This document shows positions 1-38,923 of a DNA stretch of 38,923 nt, piece by piece. Positions within the stretch are counted from its first letter, which is position 1; every line of letters begins with the position of its first letter. The notes beneath the pieces are model-generated. The model was not told where the DNA came from, searched no databases, and was given only the letters and a program-made list of their open reading frames with translations. The translations under genes and the position numbers were made by a program. This stretch comes from a virus: IMG/VR virus record IMGVR_UViG_3300044987_003178, positions 1-38,923 of that record. One strand, given 5' to 3'.

Positions 1-127
1 GGAGTTGACCAGCCCGTAGAGGAAGGCGCGGGTCACGATGATGTCGCAGGCCTCCGGGTTCTGGATGTAGCCGAGGCAGCCGGCCGCATCTGCGCTGTGC
101 GCGGCCTGCCCGGTGAGCGCGAAGGAG
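1..127. repeat. Terminal direct repeat, left copy
   Basis: These 127 bases are identical to 38797..38923. An exact repeat of this length at both ends is what an assembler leaves when it closes a circular or circularly permuted genome. It lies inside a coding sequence (the gene split between 1..168 and 38539..38923), and the reading frame continues cleanly across the junction. That argues for a closed circle rather than a true packaged terminal repeat. Confidence 0.95.
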
Positions 128-168
128 CACAAGCCGCGCTCCGTGGTCCAATCGACCTTGCTTCCCAT
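1..168 (-). CDS. Virion-associated protein, 5' part (gene split by window ends)
   Basis: This is the N-terminal 56 codons of a 141-residue protein whose remainder is at 38539..38923. The ATG at 166-168 follows a good ribosome site (GAAGGAGA, about 7 bases away), and the protein begins MGSKVDWTTERGLCSFALTG. The codons overlapping the terminal repeat read identically in both copies, so the gene is whole on a circle. It lies between the beta-helix protein gene and the head-tail adaptor gene, in a head operon. I do not recognise the family. Position and size suggest a small capsid-associated or decoration protein. Confidence 0.75.
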   Translation of the reverse strand, partial: MGSKVDWTTERGLCSFALTGQAAHSADAAGCLGYIQNPEACDIIVTRAFLYGLVNS

Positions 169-232
169 GTCGTTGTCTCCTTCTCTGCGGGCCGGACCGC
201 CTCACCGACGGTCCAGCCCGCTATGGTGTGCG

Positions 233-1177
233 TCAGGTGGTCGGGTTGGTGGAGACCCCAGCGCCGGCGTTCGGCGCCGGGTCGGCGGTGTAGATGTGGG
301 TCACGACGTCGGCCCAGCCGGAGTTGACCCCGACCAGCTGGCAGCCGCGCAGGATCACGAAGTGCGTGTTGCCGGCGGCCGGCATGTCGAAGGCGTTGCT
401 GATGCCGTTCGCCCAGTTCGCCGTGTAGTTGAAGAACAGGCAGTCGTCGAAGATCGTGTCGCGCAGGTCGCCGGCGCTGTTGTCCACCACGGCGAGGAAC
501 TTGCCGGCCGTCTCGGAGTAGCTGCGGATGTCGCAGGCGATGAAGCGGTTGCGCGCCCCGGCGACGATGAGCTCGGCGTTGGCGGCCGTGCGGATCACCG
601 AGTCGAGCCCGATGGTGCAGCGCGCGAAGGTGTTCTCCGAGCCGCTGACCTTGAGCGAGTAGGAGCCCGCTCGCGTAGCCGCCGCCGCGACACCGGTGGA
701 TCCCATGCCGGCGACGAACACGTTCTCGAGGTAGTTGCGCTCGCCCGAGACCAGTACGCAGGCTCCGTCCTCAGCCTTGTCCTTGCCGTCGAAGAACTGG
801 ATGTTCTTCACGATGCAGCCGGAACCCGAGAGCGTGAACAGGGTCGCGAGGTCGTTGGCCGCGGTGTTGACGATGCGGCAGCGCTGGCCCATGCCCGGCA
901 GATCGCCCGAGAGGCCGACCAGGTGCGTGTAGCTCTTGGCCCAGTCGATGGCCGCCGTGGGGTTGTCGGCGGTGGGCCCGCCGACGAAGAGCACGACGTC
1001 GTTCTGGTTGGTGACGCACTTGGCGTAGGCCGCGGCCACCGTCTTCAGCGGCTTCGACCACTTGGTGCCGGGGTTGGTGTCGAGCCCGCTCACCGGGTCG
1101 ACGATGTAGACGTTGCTGTTCGGACCACGCGGCACGTTCGCCAGCGCGGCGGAGATGTCGAGCGGGTAGAGGCCCAT
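233..1177 (-). CDS. Right-handed beta-helix-like protein, probable capsid-associated
   Basis: This 314-residue protein follows the major capsid gene by 19 bases and has a good GAGG ribosome site before the ATG at 1177. An early motif (VYIVDPVSGLDTNPGTKWSK) is typical of the entry into pectate-lyase-like folds, where a Gly/Asp/Asn-rich loop precedes 'W..P..T'. After it come repeated short strands with 'N.F..C.I' and 'V.NIQFFDG' rungs, as expected for a parallel beta-helix. No obvious catalytic Asp or Glu cluster was found. Such folds often occur in tailspikes and fibres, but the position beside the capsid gene favours a capsid decoration or head-fibre role. The fold is inferred by eye. Confidence 0.6.
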   Translation of the reverse strand: MGLYPLDISAALANVPRGPNSNVYIVDPVSGLDTNPGTKWSKPLKTVAAAYAKCVTNQNDVVLFVGGPTADNPTAAIDWAKSYTHLVGLSGDLPGMGQRCRIVNTAANDLATLFTLSGSGCIVKNIQFFDGKDKAEDGACVLVSGERNYLENVFVAGMGSTGVAAAATRAGSYSLKVSGSENTFARCTIGLDSVIRTAANAELIVAGARNRFIACDIRSYSETAGKFLAVVDNSAGDLRDTIFDDCLFFNYTANWANGISNAFDMPAAGNTHFVILRGCQLVGVNSGWADVVTHIYTADPAPNAGAGVSTNPTT

Positions 1178-1196
1178 CAGATCCTCACTTTCGGGG

Positions 1197-2171
1197 TCAG
1201 GCGGTCAGGAGCGAGAACGGGCAGCGCGTGGCGTCCGTCTCGTTCATCTTGTTGGGCGGGTTCGGCATGGCGAAGCCGAGGCGCATGACGCAGCGCAGCG
1301 CGGCGGAGTCCTGCTGCATGAGGTTGAGCACGATGTGACCGGTGGCGTCGCTGATGACGCCCTCGGTGAAGATCTGGTAGGTCATGTCCTGGCGGATCGC
1401 GTAGACCAGCTGGTCCCACTGGCCGACGATGTCCAGAGCCTGAGCAGCGCTGACCGACCCGTCCGTCGGGAAGTACGTCGGGGCGCCGTCGATCTCGTAG
1501 CGAGTGGCGTCCTGGGGCGCGGTGGTGAAGAGCGGCACGCCGTCGGTGCTGCGGCAGTTGCGCAGGCGGCCACGAAGAGCGGTGGCGGCGACGTGACCGG
1601 TCGCCATGTAGCCGTCCGCCTCGAGGCGCATGAGCTGGCCGTCGGCGGCACCATCTGCGGACTCGCCGGCGATGGCCTCGTAGAGGTCGGAGAAGCCGGC
1701 GATCGAGGCGACGTTCCCGGCCGCCGTGGCGACGGTGACGAGGCCGGCCCCGCCGAGGTCCGTGGTCCACGTGGCGGGGATGTTGGTGCCATAGGCCACG
1801 GCGCCCCAGATGGTGCGCGAGAAGGCCATCTCGATCTCGGGCTTGGACTCCCCCCAGATGTCGTAGTCGACGTCGTCGACGACGGCCAGCGGGATCGGCA
1901 GGATGACGGCGATCTCCTCGGCGTCGATGTACTTGTTGGTCCAGTCGACTTCGGTCGTCTGCTTGAGGCCGGTGTCGCCGGAGACGAAGTAGGCGTAGGG
2001 GCTGGCGCCGAACATCGGCATCCGCACCTGGGCGGCTGACATGTTCGGCAGCTGCCGCGCCAGCTGCATGAGCGGGTTGATCTTCGGGACGCTCTTGATG
2101 ATGTCCCGGCTCACGTCTTCGGGGATGAGCGCGCTTACCTCAGCGCGCCCCGTGATGTTTGCATAGCCCAT
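1197..2171 (-). CDS. Major capsid protein (HK97-like)
   Basis: A 324-residue protein directly downstream of the scaffold gene, which is the expected place for the major capsid protein. The N-terminal part holds ALIPEDVSRDIIKSVPKINP and then 'L..QLPNMSAAQVRMPMF', matching the N-arm and E-loop region of HK97-fold capsid proteins of the actinophage type. The middle (VDWTNKYIDAEEIAVILPIP) fits the peripheral-domain strand and spine helix region. The C-terminal part (YQIFTEGVISD...NLMQQDSAALRCVMRLGF) matches the A-domain ending common to this family. The ATG at 2171 has a GAGGA ribosome site. No maturation protease cleavage site is evident, and the family often uses a separate scaffold. Confidence 0.9.
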   Translation of the reverse strand: MGYANITGRAEVSALIPEDVSRDIIKSVPKINPLMQLARQLPNMSAAQVRMPMFGASPYAYFVSGDTGLKQTTEVDWTNKYIDAEEIAVILPIPLAVVDDVDYDIWGESKPEIEMAFSRTIWGAVAYGTNIPATWTTDLGGAGLVTVATAAGNVASIAGFSDLYEAIAGESADGAADGQLMRLEADGYMATGHVAATALRGRLRNCRSTDGVPLFTTAPQDATRYEIDGAPTYFPTDGSVSAAQALDIVGQWDQLVYAIRQDMTYQIFTEGVISDATGHIVLNLMQQDSAALRCVMRLGFAMPNPPNKMNETDATRCPFSLLTA

Positions 2172-4919: not shown

Positions 4920-6590
4920 TCAGAAGAAAGCCGCGCCAGTCTTGCGTGAGCGTCGGCGCTTACGCTCCGGCAACGCCAGGTACACCTGCCGCGCCATACG
5001 GGCGAGGATGAGGGCGGCCAGGGCGTCGACCTTGCGGCCGCTCTCGCGGTGCTCCTTGCCGAACGACACGCCCCAGGCGTTCGGGCGCCGGCGGGCGTTG
5101 TGGACGTGCTGTCGCACCCGGGCGTCGCCGTCGTGGCGGAAGGCCTGCTCCGTGATCTCGTTGTGCGTGCGCTCTGCGCCGTCGGTCGTGAACTCCTTCT
5201 GGCGAGCGCGCATGTCCCAGGCGATGCGGTGCTTGGGTGACGCGAAGGCGCAGAGCTCGCGGCCGCGCTCGCGACCCAGTTCCTGCGCCCAGCGGTCGAC
5301 ATAGGACTCCCACGGGTGCAGATCGGAGAAGAACGCCACCACGTCGTAGTGCTCGAAGGCGGCGCGCACCGCCCGGTCTATCTCCGCACGCGGCGCCTGG
5401 CCGCCGTGCCGCTCCGGGTCCCAGACGCCGAGCGTGAAGGTGAAGCCGTCGGAGACACGGCAGCCCATGAGGGCACTGTGGTCGTCGGTCAGCGAACCGT
5501 CGAAGCCGAGCGTGACTACCTCGCCGGCGACGACCTTCTCGGCGCGGTCCGCGAGACCGTCCCACTCCTGCGGGGTCACCCAGGCGTCCTCGGTGGCCAC
5601 GATCTGGTTGTAGTAGAAGCGGCGGGACTGGCTGGGAGCGTTGCGGGGGTCGAGGATCTCAGCGACGAGGCGCTCGATGTCGAGCCAGGTCGAATCGCCG
5701 CGCACGGCCTCGAGCACCGCCGGCGCATCCTCGGCGCAGAGCCGGGCCTCGGGCGGCGCCTCCAGTGAATCGTAGACGAACCCGACGTCCGCTGAGCGGC
5801 CGGCCTCGATCTTCTCCCAGGCCTCGCGGGCGAGTTGCGCGACAGACTCCTCGCCGGGCTCGTAGGCGTTCGTGATGGAGAGCGCCCGGGCCTGGCCATC
5901 CTTGCTCTTCGCCAGGTTGCGCGCGATGACGCGGTCCATCGCGTGGCCCTCGTTCGTCGTGAGCCAGTGATGCGTCTCGTTGCGCAGCACGAAGGTCGAG
6001 CGCGCACCCTCCATCGTGCGTGGAGAACTGGTCACAGCCTCGATGCGCTGCGCCCCGTGGTGGGCGTAGATGATCTCCTTGCCCAGGTCGATCTCGTACT
6101 CCTTCAGCGCCGCCTTGGTGAAGTAGGCGGGAAACAGGGTCATCGTGTTCTTGGTCTGCGTGATCGAGACGGCCGCCGTCTGCACCCAGGCCTGCGGGTG
6201 CGAGATGCCGGCTGGATGCTCGTTGCCCCACGGGTCCTGGACCACGGCCCCGCCCGGATCGACGCGACAGGGCCCGACAAACTCGAGTGCACAGAGCGTC
6301 GCCCCAAGCGGGTCCTTGCCGTGCCCCTTCATGCGCTGGAAGACGCCGTCCCGGTAGACGAAGCGGCCTGCGTCGTCGACCGCGTACCAGTGGAGAAGGA
6401 ACCTCAGCTGCTCCGGCGTGTAACGCCAGGGGCGTCCGTCCTCGTGCTGCAGCCACTCGGAGGCCCAGCGGACCGCGTGCCAGCCGAGCGTGCGCTCCGG
6501 CAGGTACCAGCCGCTCGAGTGCTCCAGGTCCCTCTTCCAGGTCGGACCGATGCAGACCGGCTCAACCGCCGAGCGCGTCGCGGTACTCAT
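4920..6590 (-). CDS. terL: Terminase large subunit
   Basis: A 556-residue packaging motor. The N-terminal ATPase domain shows a Walker A-like motif at residues 88-93 (KGHGKD), a form seen in actinophage large terminases, and a Walker B-like stretch near 200-207 with E205 in LRNETHHW. The C-terminal RNase H-like nuclease has candidate metal ligands D364 (LGFDGS), D423 (FFSDLH) and D522 (KVDALAAL). The protein ends in a basic tail. The start overlaps the 3' end of terS by 29 bases, which suggests coupled translation. Full length, with no sign of damage. Whether packaging is headful or cohesive-end cannot be read from the sequence. Confidence 0.95.
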   Translation of the reverse strand: MSTATRSAVEPVCIGPTWKRDLEHSSGWYLPERTLGWHAVRWASEWLQHEDGRPWRYTPEQLRFLLHWYAVDDAGRFVYRDGVFQRMKGHGKDPLGATLCALEFVGPCRVDPGGAVVQDPWGNEHPAGISHPQAWVQTAAVSITQTKNTMTLFPAYFTKAALKEYEIDLGKEIIYAHHGAQRIEAVTSSPRTMEGARSTFVLRNETHHWLTTNEGHAMDRVIARNLAKSKDGQARALSITNAYEPGEESVAQLAREAWEKIEAGRSADVGFVYDSLEAPPEARLCAEDAPAVLEAVRGDSTWLDIERLVAEILDPRNAPSQSRRFYYNQIVATEDAWVTPQEWDGLADRAEKVVAGEVVTLGFDGSLTDDHSALMGCRVSDGFTFTLGVWDPERHGGQAPRAEIDRAVRAAFEHYDVVAFFSDLHPWESYVDRWAQELGRERGRELCAFASPKHRIAWDMRARQKEFTTDGAERTHNEITEQAFRHDGDARVRQHVHNARRRPNAWGVSFGKEHRESGRKVDALAALILARMARQVYLALPERKRRRSRKTGAAFF

Positions 6591-7026
6591 CCATCACCGA
6601 GACGGGGGCCAGCTTTGGCTCCGGCTTGCGCTGGATCTCGATGCCGATGCGGCGACGGTCGCCCTCGGTCACGCCCAGGGCGGCAAAGGCCTTGAGGTAG
6701 GCGGCCAGCGACCCGCCCTTGAGCGGCACGGTGGCGCGGACGACCTTCCCCGTGATGATGCTGACGCCGACCGCCTGCGGTTTCAGGTCGCGGCTCATCG
6801 CCTCGGCCAGCAGGTAGGCGGCCGCCCAGTCGGAGGGCTCGTAGAACTTCGCCTGGCCGGAAGTGCGGAGCGACTCGTACACGCGCCTCGCGATCGGGTG
6901 CCAGCGTTGCTCAGCCGGCGGGACCTCGACCTCTCCGGTGGTCTCGACCTTCGCGACCGGGATGTCGGGCGCGTTCTGCCGGCGGCGCTCCTCGGAGCGC
7001 TTCGGTACCGGTCCTCTGGTGCCCAT
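6562..7026 (-). CDS. terS: Terminase small subunit
   Basis: This 154-residue protein begins MGTRGPVPKRSEERRR, the characteristic N-terminus of actinophage small terminases. A helical central part (ARRVYESLRTSGQAKFYEPS, then 'DWAAAYLLAEAMSRDL') and a terminal 'MDEYRDALG' also match. It recognises phage DNA and hands it to TerL, whose gene overlaps its 3' end. The ATG at 7026 follows a GGGAGG ribosome site. It lies downstream of an HNH nuclease gene, an arrangement common in phages whose packaging needs an HNH protein. Confidence 0.92.
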   Translation of the reverse strand: MGTRGPVPKRSEERRRQNAPDIPVAKVETTGEVEVPPAEQRWHPIARRVYESLRTSGQAKFYEPSDWAAAYLLAEAMSRDLKPQAVGVSIITGKVVRATVPLKGGSLAAYLKAFAALGVTEGDRRRIGIEIQRKPEPKLAPVSVMDEYRDALGG

Positions 7027-10670: not shown

Positions 10671-10938
10671 CGGAAGGACGGAAGGATGAAATCCCTACTC
10701 TCCCCTTTAACACGTATATATGGGGGTTTTTCACGTATAGCTAGGAGTTTCAAAGAATCATCCTTCCGTCCTTCTACTTCCTGCAAATCGGCAATTTTTC
10801 ATCCTTCCGTTCGTCCTTCTGTCGTCCTTCCGCGTCCTTCCGGTTTGCACTACGACGATGCTCAAAACGGGAACTCGTCGGAAGGACCGGAAGGATGGTC
10901 GGAAGGACGGGACGTCCTGTAGCGGTCCCATCCTTCCG
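10671..10938. repeat. Iteron-like repeat cluster, probable replication origin
   Basis: About eleven copies of a 9-10 base unit CRTCCTTCCG occur in 270 bp. Reverse copies are at 10671-10680, 10680-10688, 10879-10887, 10888-10897 and 10900-10909. Forward copies are at 10759-10768 (with a partial one to 10774), 10800-10809, 10812-10821, 10823-10832, 10833-10842 and 10929-10938. They flank an AT-rich patch and run into the last 26 codons of the helicase gene. Repeats beside a D5-type helicase and an AT-rich element are typical of an initiator-bound origin. Binding of a regulator instead is possible. Confidence 0.6.
10703..10757. promoter_or_regulatory. AT-rich patch with paired CACGTATA boxes
   Basis: This short AT-rich stretch stands out in a GC-rich genome. 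It contains CACGTATA twice, at 10711-10718 and 10732-10739, 21 bp apart (two helical turns), separated by a GGGGG/TTTTT run. It lies between iteron-like repeats and upstream of the gene that starts at 10637. It may be a duplex-unwinding element of the origin, a promoter or operator for that gene, or both. No confident -35/-10 pair was identified. Confidence 0.4.
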
Positions 10939-12580
10939 ACCCAAGATCGCGTTGACGAAGGACCAGGTCCCTGACGACCGCTCGACGATGGGGCTGGTTC
11001 TGACCCCGCTTCACGCCGTGCTCGGCAAGCCGAGACGAGAGCTGCTGCAGGGTCATAGGCCGCTTGATTCCAGAAGACGAGCACCACAGCACGTAGCGTG
11101 AGAAGACGTCGGCGAGCAGCGTTTCACTGCCCGCAGCCGGCTCGAGCTCCTGCTCGATGAACTGGCCGATGACGTCGATCTCGTTGCGGTAGGCGGCAGT
11201 CTCGACGAGCACGCTTGTGGGCGGGTCGAGGCCGGCCTCCTTCCAGCGCTGGTAGCCGTCCACCATCCAGTTGAAGATGCCCGGCAGTTCGTCGGCGAGC
11301 TTGTGCATCAGCCCAGCGTCCTGGTCAGGCTCAGGAATGGAGACCTCGAAGCCCATCTTCAGGAAGCGCCGCCAGAAGCCCTGGTCGGCACCCTCCAGGC
11401 GAGGGAGGTGGTTGGTGGAGAGCAGGAGCGAGAAGCACGGCCGGAAGACCGTGGACTGGCGCGCATACATGCCCCGCGGGGAGACGTGCTCGCCGCCCGT
11501 GTACTGCTTGAGCAGGGCCTCGTCGAGCTTGTGGTGGTAGCCCGACTCGGTCGCCGTGACGAGGCGTTTGCCGGCCAGCTCGACGAGGTCCTGGCGCTGC
11601 GCTGCTCCGGCTGACTCGGCTCCGACGCACCAGGTCGTGAAGTCGGTGGTCGCGGCGTAGTCGCCGAGTATGGCGGCGAGAGTCTCCACGGTGACTGTCT
11701 TGCCGTTGGCGCCTGTGCCGTAGGGCATGAGGATGCGCTTGTTGTCGGATGGCGCGACCCCGGAGAGCGCTCTTCCTGCCCAGCGCTGCAGGAAGAGGAT
11801 GAGCTGTACGTCGCGGCCGAGGATGCGGTCGAGGTGGCCGGTCCACAGAGGGCATGCCGCCTCCGGGTCATAGGCGACACCGGCCAGGTGTGTCATGCGG
11901 TGGCTCGGCGAGTGTTTCGCGAGCTTACGCTTCTCCATGTCGAAGACACCATTGCGCAGGTTGACCAGGTGAGGCGCGGCGTCGAATGTGGCAGCGCTCG
12001 TCCGCAGCTCCGGTTCTATCTGGGCGAGCCGCAGGATCGAGGAGAGTCCGCGGGCGGACGCCGCTTGCGTGACGAAGCGCATGAGCGTCTTGTCATCCTG
12101 GCCGGCCGCCGCTCTGCGCATCCCTGCAACGGTCTGCTGAACAAGCAGGAGGGCAGCGTCCTCATCGCTCACGAAGCGGCCTGTCGGCCGTTCGTAGACA
12201 AGCCAGCGCCCCCCGGCGTACCAGATGAGTCCCCTGTGCTGCCGGGCGAAGAGGTGGGCAGACCCGGACTCGGTCAGCTCTTCAGGGAGTCGTGGCTCCG
12301 GGGTGTTGTTCCTGGCCTCGGCCTCGGCGTCAGCCTCGGCCAGCACCGCGTCGATGATGCCCTGGGGATCTGCGTACAGCCCCCGTAGAACCTCGAGCTT
12401 CGTCGAGATCTCGACGGCACGCTCGAGCGGCTCCATGGAGGCCAGCCCACGGGCCCAGAAGCGCAGCGGGTTGCCGTCTCCATTACCCGACACCCTGCCT
12501 TCTGCGACGGCCTTTTTGAGCAGCGGGTCCACGGCCGGCTTCTCTTCGGCGAAGGTGGCGGCGAGGTCGTCAGGTGGCAT
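10862..12580 (-). CDS. D5-type replicative helicase (P4-family primase/helicase, helicase part)
   Basis: A 572-residue SF3-type helicase. A D5_N-like region covers about 100-270. The ATPase carries Walker A GTGANGKT at 288-295, a Walker B-like strand LVTATE (340-345), a sensor Asn in LLLSTNHLPRL (N390) and an Arg pair at 404-405. A winged-helix-like C-terminal part (MTLQQLSSRLAEHGVKRGQN) follows. The first 100 residues show neither an archaeo-eukaryotic primase nor a TOPRIM domain, so this looks like a helicase without its own primase. The last 26 codons overlap the iteron cluster. The start overlaps the GIY-YIG gene by 11 bases. Confidence 0.88.
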   Translation of the reverse strand: MPPDDLAATFAEEKPAVDPLLKKAVAEGRVSGNGDGNPLRFWARGLASMEPLERAVEISTKLEVLRGLYADPQGIIDAVLAEADAEAEARNNTPEPRLPEELTESGSAHLFARQHRGLIWYAGGRWLVYERPTGRFVSDEDAALLLVQQTVAGMRRAAAGQDDKTLMRFVTQAASARGLSSILRLAQIEPELRTSAATFDAAPHLVNLRNGVFDMEKRKLAKHSPSHRMTHLAGVAYDPEAACPLWTGHLDRILGRDVQLILFLQRWAGRALSGVAPSDNKRILMPYGTGANGKTVTVETLAAILGDYAATTDFTTWCVGAESAGAAQRQDLVELAGKRLVTATESGYHHKLDEALLKQYTGGEHVSPRGMYARQSTVFRPCFSLLLSTNHLPRLEGADQGFWRRFLKMGFEVSIPEPDQDAGLMHKLADELPGIFNWMVDGYQRWKEAGLDPPTSVLVETAAYRNEIDVIGQFIEQELEPAAGSETLLADVFSRYVLWCSSSGIKRPMTLQQLSSRLAEHGVKRGQNQPHRRAVVRDLVLRQRDLGSEGWDRYRTSRPSDHPSGPSDEFPF

Positions 12581-33914: not shown

Positions 33915-34494
33915 CAGACCACCCTTCTGCCGAGAGATCCCATCAGCTCGTGAAACTCGTCTTCGCCCACCGGCTTGGGGTCCTGCGACGCCGCCATGAG
34001 GAAGCGCGACTCGGCCGAGAGCCCAGCCAGGAGCACGCAGAAGCGACGCCAGGTCATGGCGTCCAGCTCTTCGGTGATGTCGATGCCGTATTCACGGGCG
34101 AAGTCCGCCTCGATCAGGCCCCAGCGCGCGAGGACTTGCGCCGCGCCGCCCCGCTGGGGCTCGCCTGTTCCCCCGGACCGTCACCGGCCGGAGCTGTGTA
34201 GACCGCCATGACCATGTGCAACAACTGCAGGAGGTCGGCCATGTCGAAGTCGGCGTGCGAGAGCAGCTCGTCGAGGACGTCCTGAGGAAGCATGCGCGAG
34301 AGCATCCCCAGGGAGTCGCCGGTGCTCAGCTCGGAGTCGGGTCCCTGCTCATCCTGGATGCGCACCACGTCAAGCAGGACTCCGGCCGGGATGTTTCCCG
34401 GCAGCTCGAAGTCCCGCCCGTAGGCGTGGAGCACGACGGGCTCGCGCCGGCGTTCGGCGCGAGCCTCGTCGAAGTCGATGTACCGGTCGGCCAT
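33914..34494 (-). CDS. Tail assembly chaperone, long form made by -1 frameshift
   Basis: After the short form's frame, a -1 shift opens a second frame that continues to the stop at 33914-33916. It encodes 'VLARWGLIEADFAREYGIDI', 'TEELDAMTWRRFCVLLAGLS' and 'AESRFLMAASQDPKPVGEDE'. That is the usual T-domain sequence of such fusions in actinophages (WRRF...LLAGL.AES). The second frame has no suitable start codon of its own before this conserved region. The fusion would be about 193 residues. Its stop overlaps the tape measure ATG (TGATG). This mirrors the gpG/gpGT system of lambda. Confidence 0.88.
34114..34494 (-). CDS. Tail assembly chaperone, short form
   Basis: A 126-residue protein between the major tail protein and tape measure genes. 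It begins MADRYIDFDEARAERRREPV; 'YGRDFELPGNIPAGVLLDVV' and LPQDVLDELLSHADFDMADL match the G-type chaperone of actinophages. The last 20 residues, after the frameshift site, are basic and low-complexity, as expected of the non-shifted tail. Together with the long form it should coat the tape measure during tail assembly. Confidence 0.85.
   Translation of the reverse strand: MADRYIDFDEARAERRREPVVLHAYGRDFELPGNIPAGVLLDVVRIQDEQGPDSELSTGDSLGMLSRMLPQDVLDELLSHADFDMADLLQLLHMVMAVYTAPAGDGPGEQASPSGAARRKSSRAGA
34168..34174 (-). other. Candidate -1 frameshift site GGGGGAA
   Basis: In the transcript the sense frame reads CCG GGG GAA CAG. A slip back by one base on the run of five G keeps a GGG codon paired and leads into the open chaperone frame (GGA ACA GGC GAG). 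It is the most slippery sequence in the overlap of the two frames. A GC-rich region downstream could form a stimulating structure. Confidence 0.65.
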
Positions 34495-34497
34495 GGA

Positions 34498-34941
34498 TCA
34501 GCTTCCGGACTCGGCGGGAATGCCCTTGACCGAGAGCGTCGCGGACCAGTTGGCCCCAGACTTGTGGTCGCCGCCGAACGGCTGGCATTCCACGGAGGCG
34601 GTGAAGATCCAGATGAGGCCGCCGGGGCTGGTGATCTGGAACTGCAGACGGGCCTCCTCGCCGGTCTCCCACTGCACGGCCTCGACCGCGGCCTGCCCGG
34701 AGTCGCGCTCCCCGGTGTCGGGGTCCTCGAGGCGGTTCGCCGTCACGGCGAAGCTGACGGCGTGCCCGACGATGCGCTCGTCGGCGCCGTCGGAGTCGCA
34801 GTCGGACAGGTCGATCTTGTCTGTCGAGACAGACATCGTGAGGTCCTTGCGGCCGCCGATCTTGGTCCACGTCGGCGAGCCCTCGGTGCCGGTGTTGACG
34901 TTCAGGACGAAGTCCCTGCTCAGTACCTTCTCCAGCGCCAT
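34498..34941 (-). CDS. Major tail protein
   Basis: A 147-residue protein beginning MALEKVLSRDFVLNVNTGTE. 'WTKIGGRKDLTMSVSTDKID' and 'GHAVSFAVTANRLEDPDTGE' are typical of siphovirus tail tube subunits, and the C-terminal strand pair ends WSATLSVKGIPAESG. It precedes the tail chaperone gene and follows the tail terminator gene, the standard order. It should form hexameric rings around the tape measure. Confidence 0.88.
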   Translation of the reverse strand: MALEKVLSRDFVLNVNTGTEGSPTWTKIGGRKDLTMSVSTDKIDLSDCDSDGADERIVGHAVSFAVTANRLEDPDTGERDSGQAAVEAVQWETGEEARLQFQITSPGGLIWIFTASVECQPFGGDHKSGANWSATLSVKGIPAESGS

Positions 34942-37772: not shown

Positions 37773-38083
37773 GCGCACACCACTTCCACGACCACCGTTT
37801 CTCCAGGGCGCCCCGAGGGTTCGACTGAGATGACCCTGCTGTGGTAGTCGCCGATCGTGACGAGCGAGTCCGCGGCGAAGAGAGATTCGTCGTCCGGATG
37901 CACGTGCAGGGTCAGCTCCGAGACCACCTCGGCGCCGCTTGCGTCGCGCACGAGGCGGCGCGTCCAGGAGACCTTGCAGGCGACCGCGATGCCGTCCGCC
38001 CTGACGGGTCCGTAGGCGCCCTCTCCGGTGCGCGTCTCCACCGTGACTTCGTCGCGCAGCAGTCTGCGTGAGACGCCTCTCAT
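37769..38083 (-). CDS. Head closure (head-tail stopper) protein
   Basis: A 104-residue protein beginning MRGVSRRLLRDEVTVETRTG, a typical opening of head-closure proteins. A set of beta strands follows (VSWTRRLVRDASGAEVVSEL; SLVTIGDYHSRVISVEPSGR). ATG at 38083 overlaps the adaptor stop (TGATG); a GTG one codon earlier is possible. It should bind the adaptor ring and keep DNA in the filled head. Confidence 0.8.
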   Translation of the reverse strand: MRGVSRRLLRDEVTVETRTGEGAYGPVRADGIAVACKVSWTRRLVRDASGAEVVSELTLHVHPDDESLFAADSLVTIGDYHSRVISVEPSGRPGETVVVEVVCA

Positions 38084-38535
38084 CACTCGGCCGGCTCCGG
38101 AGCGTTGACGACGATGTAGCCGTCGTCGCTGAAGAGCGCGGCGACGTCACCCTCGAGCGAGGGCAGGGGAAGGTCAGTCGTGAGGGTGACCGTCCCGACG
38201 CCGAGCCGTCCGGCGGCACGCCTGACGGCACGCTTCTCGTCGGCCGTCAGGTAGACGCCGGAGGCGGTGACGACGCCGGCACGCCATGTATAGGAGCCGA
38301 TCGTCTCGCCCTGCAGCCCGGCGGGGTTGTCGAACGCCCGCCGGGCTGCCTCGCATACGACCGGCAGCAGGGCCGCCGGCACGGTGGCACTCGTCCAGGG
38401 AGCGTCCAGGTCAGCGACGTCCAGGATCAGCGCCGAAGCGTCTTCGAGGAGAGCATTCACCTGGGCGATCTCGTCCTCGGTGAGAGTCACGCCCCAGCGC
38501 ACCTCGCAGTCGGTGTATGCGGCGAGCGCGGCCAT
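38083..38535 (-). CDS. Head-tail adaptor protein (gp15/gp6-type connector)
   Basis: A 150-residue helical protein. 'EVRWGVTLTEDEIAQVNALL', EDASALILDVADLDAPW and 'AALLPVVCEAARRAFDNPAG' match the Gp15/Gp19-type adaptor of Gram-positive phages. The centre (GETIGSYTWRAG...VYLTADEKRAVRRAAG) contains the 'LT..E...L' segment typical of actinophage members. It docks on the portal. The gene is preceded by the 141-residue virion protein split at the window ends. Confidence 0.85.
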   Translation of the reverse strand: MAALAAYTDCEVRWGVTLTEDEIAQVNALLEDASALILDVADLDAPWTSATVPAALLPVVCEAARRAFDNPAGLQGETIGSYTWRAGVVTASGVYLTADEKRAVRRAAGRLGVGTVTLTTDLPLPSLEGDVAALFSDDGYIVVNAPEPAE

Positions 38536-38538
38536 GGA

Positions 38539-38923
38539 TCACGCCGTGAAGTCAGGCACGCGAACGTACTCGAAGAAGAAGATCCCCGAGTAGCCGGAGG
38601 TGTCGGCCGAGCCGAAGGCGGCGATGTAGTCGCCCTCCGGGACCTTCGGCAGCGAATCGGCGGCGTCGCCGTTGGCGAACCCGGTGACGGCGGTGCCGTG
38701 CGAGTCGGCCTGCGCCGCGGCGGCGAACAGGTCGGTCCGATCGTGCGCGCCGGCCACCGTGGCGGCGTTGCCGACGGTGATGTTCGCGACCCCCGCGGAG
38801 TTGACCAGCCCGTAGAGGAAGGCGCGGGTCACGATGATGTCGCAGGCCTCCGGGTTCTGGATGTAGCCGAGGCAGCCGGCCGCATCTGCGCTGTGCGCGG
38901 CCTGCCCGGTGAGCGCGAAGGAG
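38539..38923 (-). CDS. Virion-associated protein, 3' part (gene split by window ends)
   Basis: C-terminal part of the protein that starts at 168. Read across the junction, the full product is 141 residues and ends YVRVPDFTA. Its sequence is rich in Ala, Gly, Thr and Asp with alternating hydrophobic residues (IFFFEYVRV near the end), which fits a beta-rich structural protein. The stop codon is 3 bases from the ATG of the adaptor gene at 38535, so the two are probably translated together. No enzyme motif is seen. Function as a small capsid or decoration protein is inferred from position only. Confidence 0.75.
   Translation of the reverse strand, partial: SFALTGQAAHSADAAGCLGYIQNPEACDIIVTRAFLYGLVNSAGVANITVGNAATVAGAHDRTDLFAAAAQADSHGTAVTGFANGDAADSLPKVPEGDYIAAFGSADTSGYSGIFFFEYVRVPDFTA
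38797..38923. repeat. Terminal direct repeat, right copy
   Basis: Exact copy of bases 1..127. Joining the two copies gives a 38,796-bp circle and restores one intact minus-strand gene. A real direct terminal repeat of phage DNA is possible but less likely, because the repeat starts and ends in mid-gene. Confidence 0.95.

Follow-up and report, generated by a model that had tools for sequence, protein, structure and literature searches.

The locus analysed here comprises the 3' end of a helicase gene, a dense array of short boxes and an AT-rich gap lying among them. The window, by which we mean the whole 38,923-nt stretch of viral DNA, encodes terminase, portal, major head, tape measure and tail proteins, and its terminase was closest to those of actinobacteriophages (48% to Streptomyces phages). 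The ORF at 6562-7026, which adjoins the terminase large subunit, matched phrog_226, labelled "minor tail protein" (E 5e-36); by its position a small terminase is more likely, and the phrog_226 label may be wrong. A major head protein was found at the left end of the window (1-2171) and a head-tail adaptor at the right end (38083-38923), suggesting that the two ends of the record join in a circular or permuted genome. Close relatives of the window were limited to two 100% identical contigs from sister metagenomes, and no DNA similarity of the array region to phage records was found.

The gene that runs into the array encodes a D5-type SF3 helicase (P0001), which matched primase/helicase families of PHROG down to 8e-90. 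Its AlphaFold2 (AF2) model had a mean pLDDT of 85.6 with a confident core, and a Foldseek search with this model returned ASFV PrimPol, the SaPI5 primase-helicase 7ola (E 1.2e-15) and MPXV E5. The C-terminal arrangement of helices and strands at about residues 455-541 was compatible with a winged helix, and residues 554-572 had pLDDT values below 50, forming a predicted disordered tail beyond the winged-helix domain. Compared with its homologues (700-860 aa), the protein lacks most of the N-terminal region, and the helicase of locus L182 (503 aa) was similar.

We counted the repeats over the complete record. CRTCCTTCCG occurred in 9 exact copies, every one at 10671-10938 (5 on the + strand and 4 on the - strand), and the reversed pattern had 0 occurrences in the 38,923-bp record. 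The 8-base core TCCTTCCG was present in 10 copies, all in the same segment and with five in each orientation, and the 6-base core TCCTTC identified 12 boxes there. When we simulated 2000 sequences of 268 bp with the dinucleotide make-up of the window, no 8-mer exceeded 5 copies, indicating that the box cluster is not a product of chance. These results bore out the original prediction of dense repeats in both orientations. A search of the array region against Rfam gave sub-threshold miRNA matches only, which arise from the inverted repeats.

With positions counted from the helicase stop, the array runs from -77 to +191. Following the helicase gene 5' to 3', the boxes lie at -77 (forward) and at -46, -34 and -25 (reverse) within the coding sequence, followed by +19, +29, +40 (one mismatch), +52 and +93 (forward), an AT-rich gap of ~70 bp, and +175 and +183 (reverse). 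The AT-rich patch has two boxes (10671-10688) on its downstream side, and the series on its helicase side (10759-10842) is longer (Table 1). As had been claimed, the boxes continue into the last codons of the helicase: four of them (10879-10938) are inside the helicase ORF, 12580-10862(-), where they encode ...GSEGW...RPSDHPSGPSDEF and make up a further inverted group that encloses another gap, of 36 bp.

Table 1. Features of the helicase gene end and the adjoining box array
Feature	Position	Strand	Details
Box set, downstream side of AT-rich gap	10671..10688	-	CGTCCTTCCG 10671-10680 and CATCCTTCCG 10679-10688, spacing 8
AT-rich gap, presumed unwinding site	10689..10758		38.6% GC; minimum-GC stretch of the record here
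Two imperfect 21-bp direct repeats in AT-rich gap	10706..10747		TTTAACACGTATATATGGGGG / TTTTTCACGTATAGCTAGGAG
Box set, helicase side of AT-rich gap	10759..10842	+	Exact at 10759, 10800, 10823, 10833; one mismatch at 10812; degenerate CGTCCTTCTA at 10767
D5-type SF3 helicase (P0001), 572 aa, presumed initiator	10862..12580	-	Pfam D5_N 1.6e-19, Pox_D5 1.1e-4
Box-encoded helicase tail, codons about 545-572, rare codons	10862..10945	-	Codon usage, pLDDT
Three boxes within helicase coding sequence	10879..10909	-	10879 (one mismatch), 10888, 10900; read as RPSD-HPSG-GPSD
Outermost box CATCCTTCCG, within helicase coding sequence	10929..10938	+	Read as GSEGW

The lowest-GC stretch of the whole window fell among the boxes at stretch lengths of 50, 70, 100 and 150 bp; for example, 10707-10776 had 38.6% GC versus a mean of 68.4%. 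The AT-rich patch that had been described among the boxes was thereby confirmed. The two 21-bp direct repeats in the gap contain CACGTATA, and may be comparable to the accessory type 2 repeats that are annotated for the P4 ori.

We also examined the part of the helicase that the boxes encode. The last 27 helicase codons scored below 1997 of 1999 other 27-codon windows in codon usage (overlapping windows from 13 genes), and GC3 was 0.63 in the tail, compared with 0.83 in the rest of the helicase and 0.89 in the 13 genes. Boxes reach into the coding region in another lineage too (L246). The original prediction held that the helicase tail may be shaped by DNA function, and three features support this: the predicted disorder, the place beyond the winged helix and the unusually rare codons. 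Since the boxes sit in the last codons, DNA binding would dictate part of an otherwise unstructured protein tail; a protein function of the tail remains compatible with this.

We compared the array with origins already described beside helicases of this family. The GenBank record of the Streptococcus thermophilus phage Sfi21 annotates an origin at 34487-34784 (302 bp) that starts in the last codons of the helicase gene, and our scan resolved it into two copies of TTAGTTAC, an AT-rich gap of about 71 bp and two copies of GTAACTAA. Like the window, Sfi21 thus carries two inverted box pairs around an AT-rich gap at the 3' end of a homologous helicase gene; unlike the window, it has another box, fewer boxes and none in coding sequence by the same scan. 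The helicase profile that we built matched the Sfi21 helicase and P4 alpha at 1e-23 and 7e-26, respectively. P4 alpha shares D5_N and Pox_D5 with the window helicase, and the alpha gene is followed on its 3' side by crr, whose 8-bp type 1 repeats point both ways; the window likewise has boxes resembling type 1 repeats, oriented both ways, 3' of a primase-helicase gene. However, the P4 crr consists of two 120-bp direct repeats, P4 has a separate annotated ori, and alpha has a Toprim primase. The boxes of the window form a single cluster rather than a separate ori and crr sharing one box. A strict search for the layout, defined as two tandem boxes, a gap of 30-130 bp and two inverted tandem boxes, gave no match in P4.

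The SaPI origin has been reported to lie directly downstream of rep and to be recognised via the C-terminal domain, and in vitro the C-terminal domain of SCCmec Cch2 bound repeats located downstream (PMC7581432). The window helicase belongs to the same family (D5_N/Primase_Cterm) as SaPI5 Rep and SCCmec Cch2. PICI origins are described as "always" having two iteron sets that flank an AT-rich region, a layout stated in 2018 to be unique to PICIs (PMC6092414). In the window, the array is immediately 3' of the presumed initiator gene, and its opposed box sets have the minimum-GC stretch between them; the likeness to a D5/SF3 initiator with a C-terminal DNA-binding domain is one of family and fold only (Pfam, AF2, Foldseek to 7ola). 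Unlike the SaPI/PICI systems, the window has a different box, an extra inverted group in coding sequence and a helicase without the N-terminal region of longer homologues. SaPIs and PICIs are satellites, whereas the window has the terminase, portal, capsid and tail genes of a tailed phage; its classification as a PICI satellite was rejected because it encodes proteins for the terminase, portal, major head, tape measure and tail.

We surveyed helicase relatives in 80 IMG/VR loci, six phage records and the window, scoring repeated 8-mers along each locus. Clustering at 70% identity gave 30 clusters, each represented by its best-scoring member. The results showed a repeat peak score of at least 8 in 18 of the 30 helicase clusters, and 12 of these 18 peaks fell between -150 and +300 bp relative to the helicase stop, compared with 0.88 expected and a maximum of 6 in 20,000 simulations. 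A lack of repeats in relatives with the same helicase had been named in advance as evidence against an origin; distant homologues (about 30% identity) bear their own box arrays at the same place, just 3' of the stop codon, and the idea survived this check. The box words vary by lineage, with AGTACAGA in KiSi, CGGGTGCC in GMA4, and GTGAAGGG, GGTGACAT, GTGAACGA and others elsewhere.

Across 731 kb, 11 of 32 clusters, Sfi21 among them, had the strict layout at the 3' end of the helicase gene, and it occurred clearly elsewhere only once (L198); a second flag away from the gene end (L015, at +551) proved to be part of the same array. In AcaML1, this search gave two copies of TCTGACGG, a 53-bp gap and two copies of CCGTCAGA at +62. 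That only about a third of the helicase clusters have the strict layout counts against the origin reading. A search of the helicase alone against bacterial genomes gave no match.

In the converse direction, we scanned DNA with no protein information. The pattern GGAAGGA-N1-9-GGAAGGA-N60-90-TCCTTCC was searched over 2.9 million IMG/VR viral contigs, giving 53 matches, 36 of which had a D5 helicase. In all 36, the array centre was 52-190 bp past the helicase stop. The reversed control pattern gave 11 matches in the same contigs, with a D5 helicase in 0 of 11. The 36 helicase-bearing matches formed 16 clusters at 70% identity: two matches were the identical sister contigs of the window phage, one was a fragment too short to cluster, and the remainder formed 15 further clusters. 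A similar scan of bacterial genomes returned 94 matches, and the 10 with a D5 helicase, mostly from Sphingomonadales, all lay 54-169 bp past the stop. An earlier loose scan with a pair of TCCTTCCG was set aside; among the matches listed, most were background.

Several other observations came from the scans. For 17 viral matches (L062, L222, L233, L236, L243, L248-L251 and others), no D5 helicase could be detected in the stretch retrieved; some of these stretches end early, and other matches may be due to chance or to another initiator. In Gemmatimonadota contigs (L297, L323, L338, L339, L349 and others), individual Gemmatimonadales genomes had the inverted GGAAGGA pattern on several of their contigs with no D5 helicase, in some cases on both strands; this looks like a dispersed palindromic repeat family. 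One GGAAGGA lineage had, besides the 3'-end array, a second TCCTTCC group ~400-500 bp before the matched helicase region (L040 4633-4711, L058 6032-6110, L231 8933-9011, L235 5330-5408), which may be upstream of the helicase gene or inside its 5' part.

Across the GGAAGGA clusters, the box consensus was YGGAAGGAT or a near variant of it. The winged helix of P0001 had a mean identity of 0.20 to those of other GGAAGGA-box helicases versus 0.23 to those of surveyed relatives, mostly with other boxes, and co-variation of box and winged helix was looked for in this comparison and not found. Either the box was arrived at by convergence, or specificity sits elsewhere than in the winged helix. It is possible, if somewhat doubtful, that one box word, YGGAAGGAT, serves at least 16 helicase lineages with dissimilar winged helices; if true, the shared box would permit cross-recognition of initiators and origins among phages and satellites.

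From these sequence comparisons, the array is very probably the replication origin of the phage, of the helicase-initiator type represented by SaPI/PICI, P4 and Sfi21, and it would then be a further case of a known origin type, whose layout has been described in phage satellites and in a small number of phages. Of the earlier claim of an iteron-type origin, the origin itself has held up, supported by the arrays beside homologous helicases, the blind scan, the Sfi21 origin and the P4 crr. The parallel with plasmid Rep and iterons has not, and an origin of that kind was rejected, the boxes being in both orientations and the adjoining gene encoding an SF3 helicase. GC skew of the window, which had been proposed as a check, gave no clear origin signal and was uninformative.

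In the mechanism we propose, the D5-type SF3 helicase from the adjoining gene would act as initiator, its C-terminal winged-helix domain binding the 9-10 bp boxes YGGAAGGAY. At the two flanks of the AT-rich gap, the opposed box sets would anchor helicase rings; the rings would melt the gap, load in opposite directions and move apart, giving bidirectional replication in the way suggested for SaPI Rep. Further copies of the helicase may bind the extra inverted group within the helicase gene, serving cooperative loading or copy control. For the window phage we infer binding by its own helicase, melting of the gap, origin activity and this role of the coding boxes.

Alternatively, the repeats could act by folding, as a DNA cruciform or an RNA stem-loop at the end of the helicase mRNA, as proposed for pRN1 and phage BIP-1. 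The pRN1 protein ORF904 and BIP-1 resemble the window in having an SF3 helicase with a C-terminal winged helix, and in pRN1 a 100-bp stem-loop just 3' of this gene is essential for replication (PMC4234260); unlike the window, both have a stem-loop and no iterons, according to their authors. The strand of the window folds far better than shuffled sequences (z -6.4 as DNA and -7.6 as RNA), but this largely follows from inverted boxes by construction. In the GGAAGGA-phage arrays, a second box was present on both sides in 9 of 20, with equal spacing in only 3 of those 9, and non-box positions were 35% complementary, a raw figure without a shuffled baseline. Boxes therefore persist in these arrays and a continuous stem does not, which favours protein-binding boxes and makes action by folding decidedly unlikely.

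It is highly unlikely that the array is instead an operator/promoter region holding repressor or activator sites for the downstream gene 10649-9681(-). The array is directly upstream of that gene, operators can consist of clustered inverted boxes, and the AT-rich gap could house a promoter; however, a search for sigma-70-like promoters found none at the array. Across lineages, moreover, the arrays follow the 3' ends of D5 helicase genes while the genes downstream differ (for example, RusA in KiSi and an ATPase-like gene in Sfi21), and at this place P4 has crr and Sfi21 its annotated origin. Autoregulation could still accompany origin function.

Arm-type sites of an attachment region, bound by integrase or excisionase, are a most improbable explanation of the boxes. 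A tyrosine integrase is encoded at 9266-8169(-), and P4 has attP arm repeats annotated near its integrase gene; but the array is about 1.4 kb from the integrase gene with two other genes between them, rather than beside it, and the arrays of relatives stay with the helicase even in phages with no integrase annotated beside the array. Hardly credible is a by-product of a low-complexity Pro-Ser tail (PSD/PSG repeats): three boxes do give xPSx units in one frame, but 6 of 10 boxes lie outside coding sequence, the fourth coding box points the other way, the box codons are rare for the window phage, and most relatives have their boxes in non-coding DNA, where the peptide is absent.

Judged by sequence, the layout once called unique to PICIs is common in phages with D5 helicases, many of them distantly related, and our findings call into question its published PICI-only status (PMC6092414). 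The origins of most phages are unknown, and here a concrete predicted origin is provided for the window phage. A simple rule, namely boxes within about 200 bp of the stop codon of a D5 helicase gene, yields predicted origins in many other phages, among them KiSi and other cluster K mycobacteriophages, and in Sphingomonadales prophages. The locus is also a candidate case of DNA-binding sites apparently writing the C-terminus of a protein.
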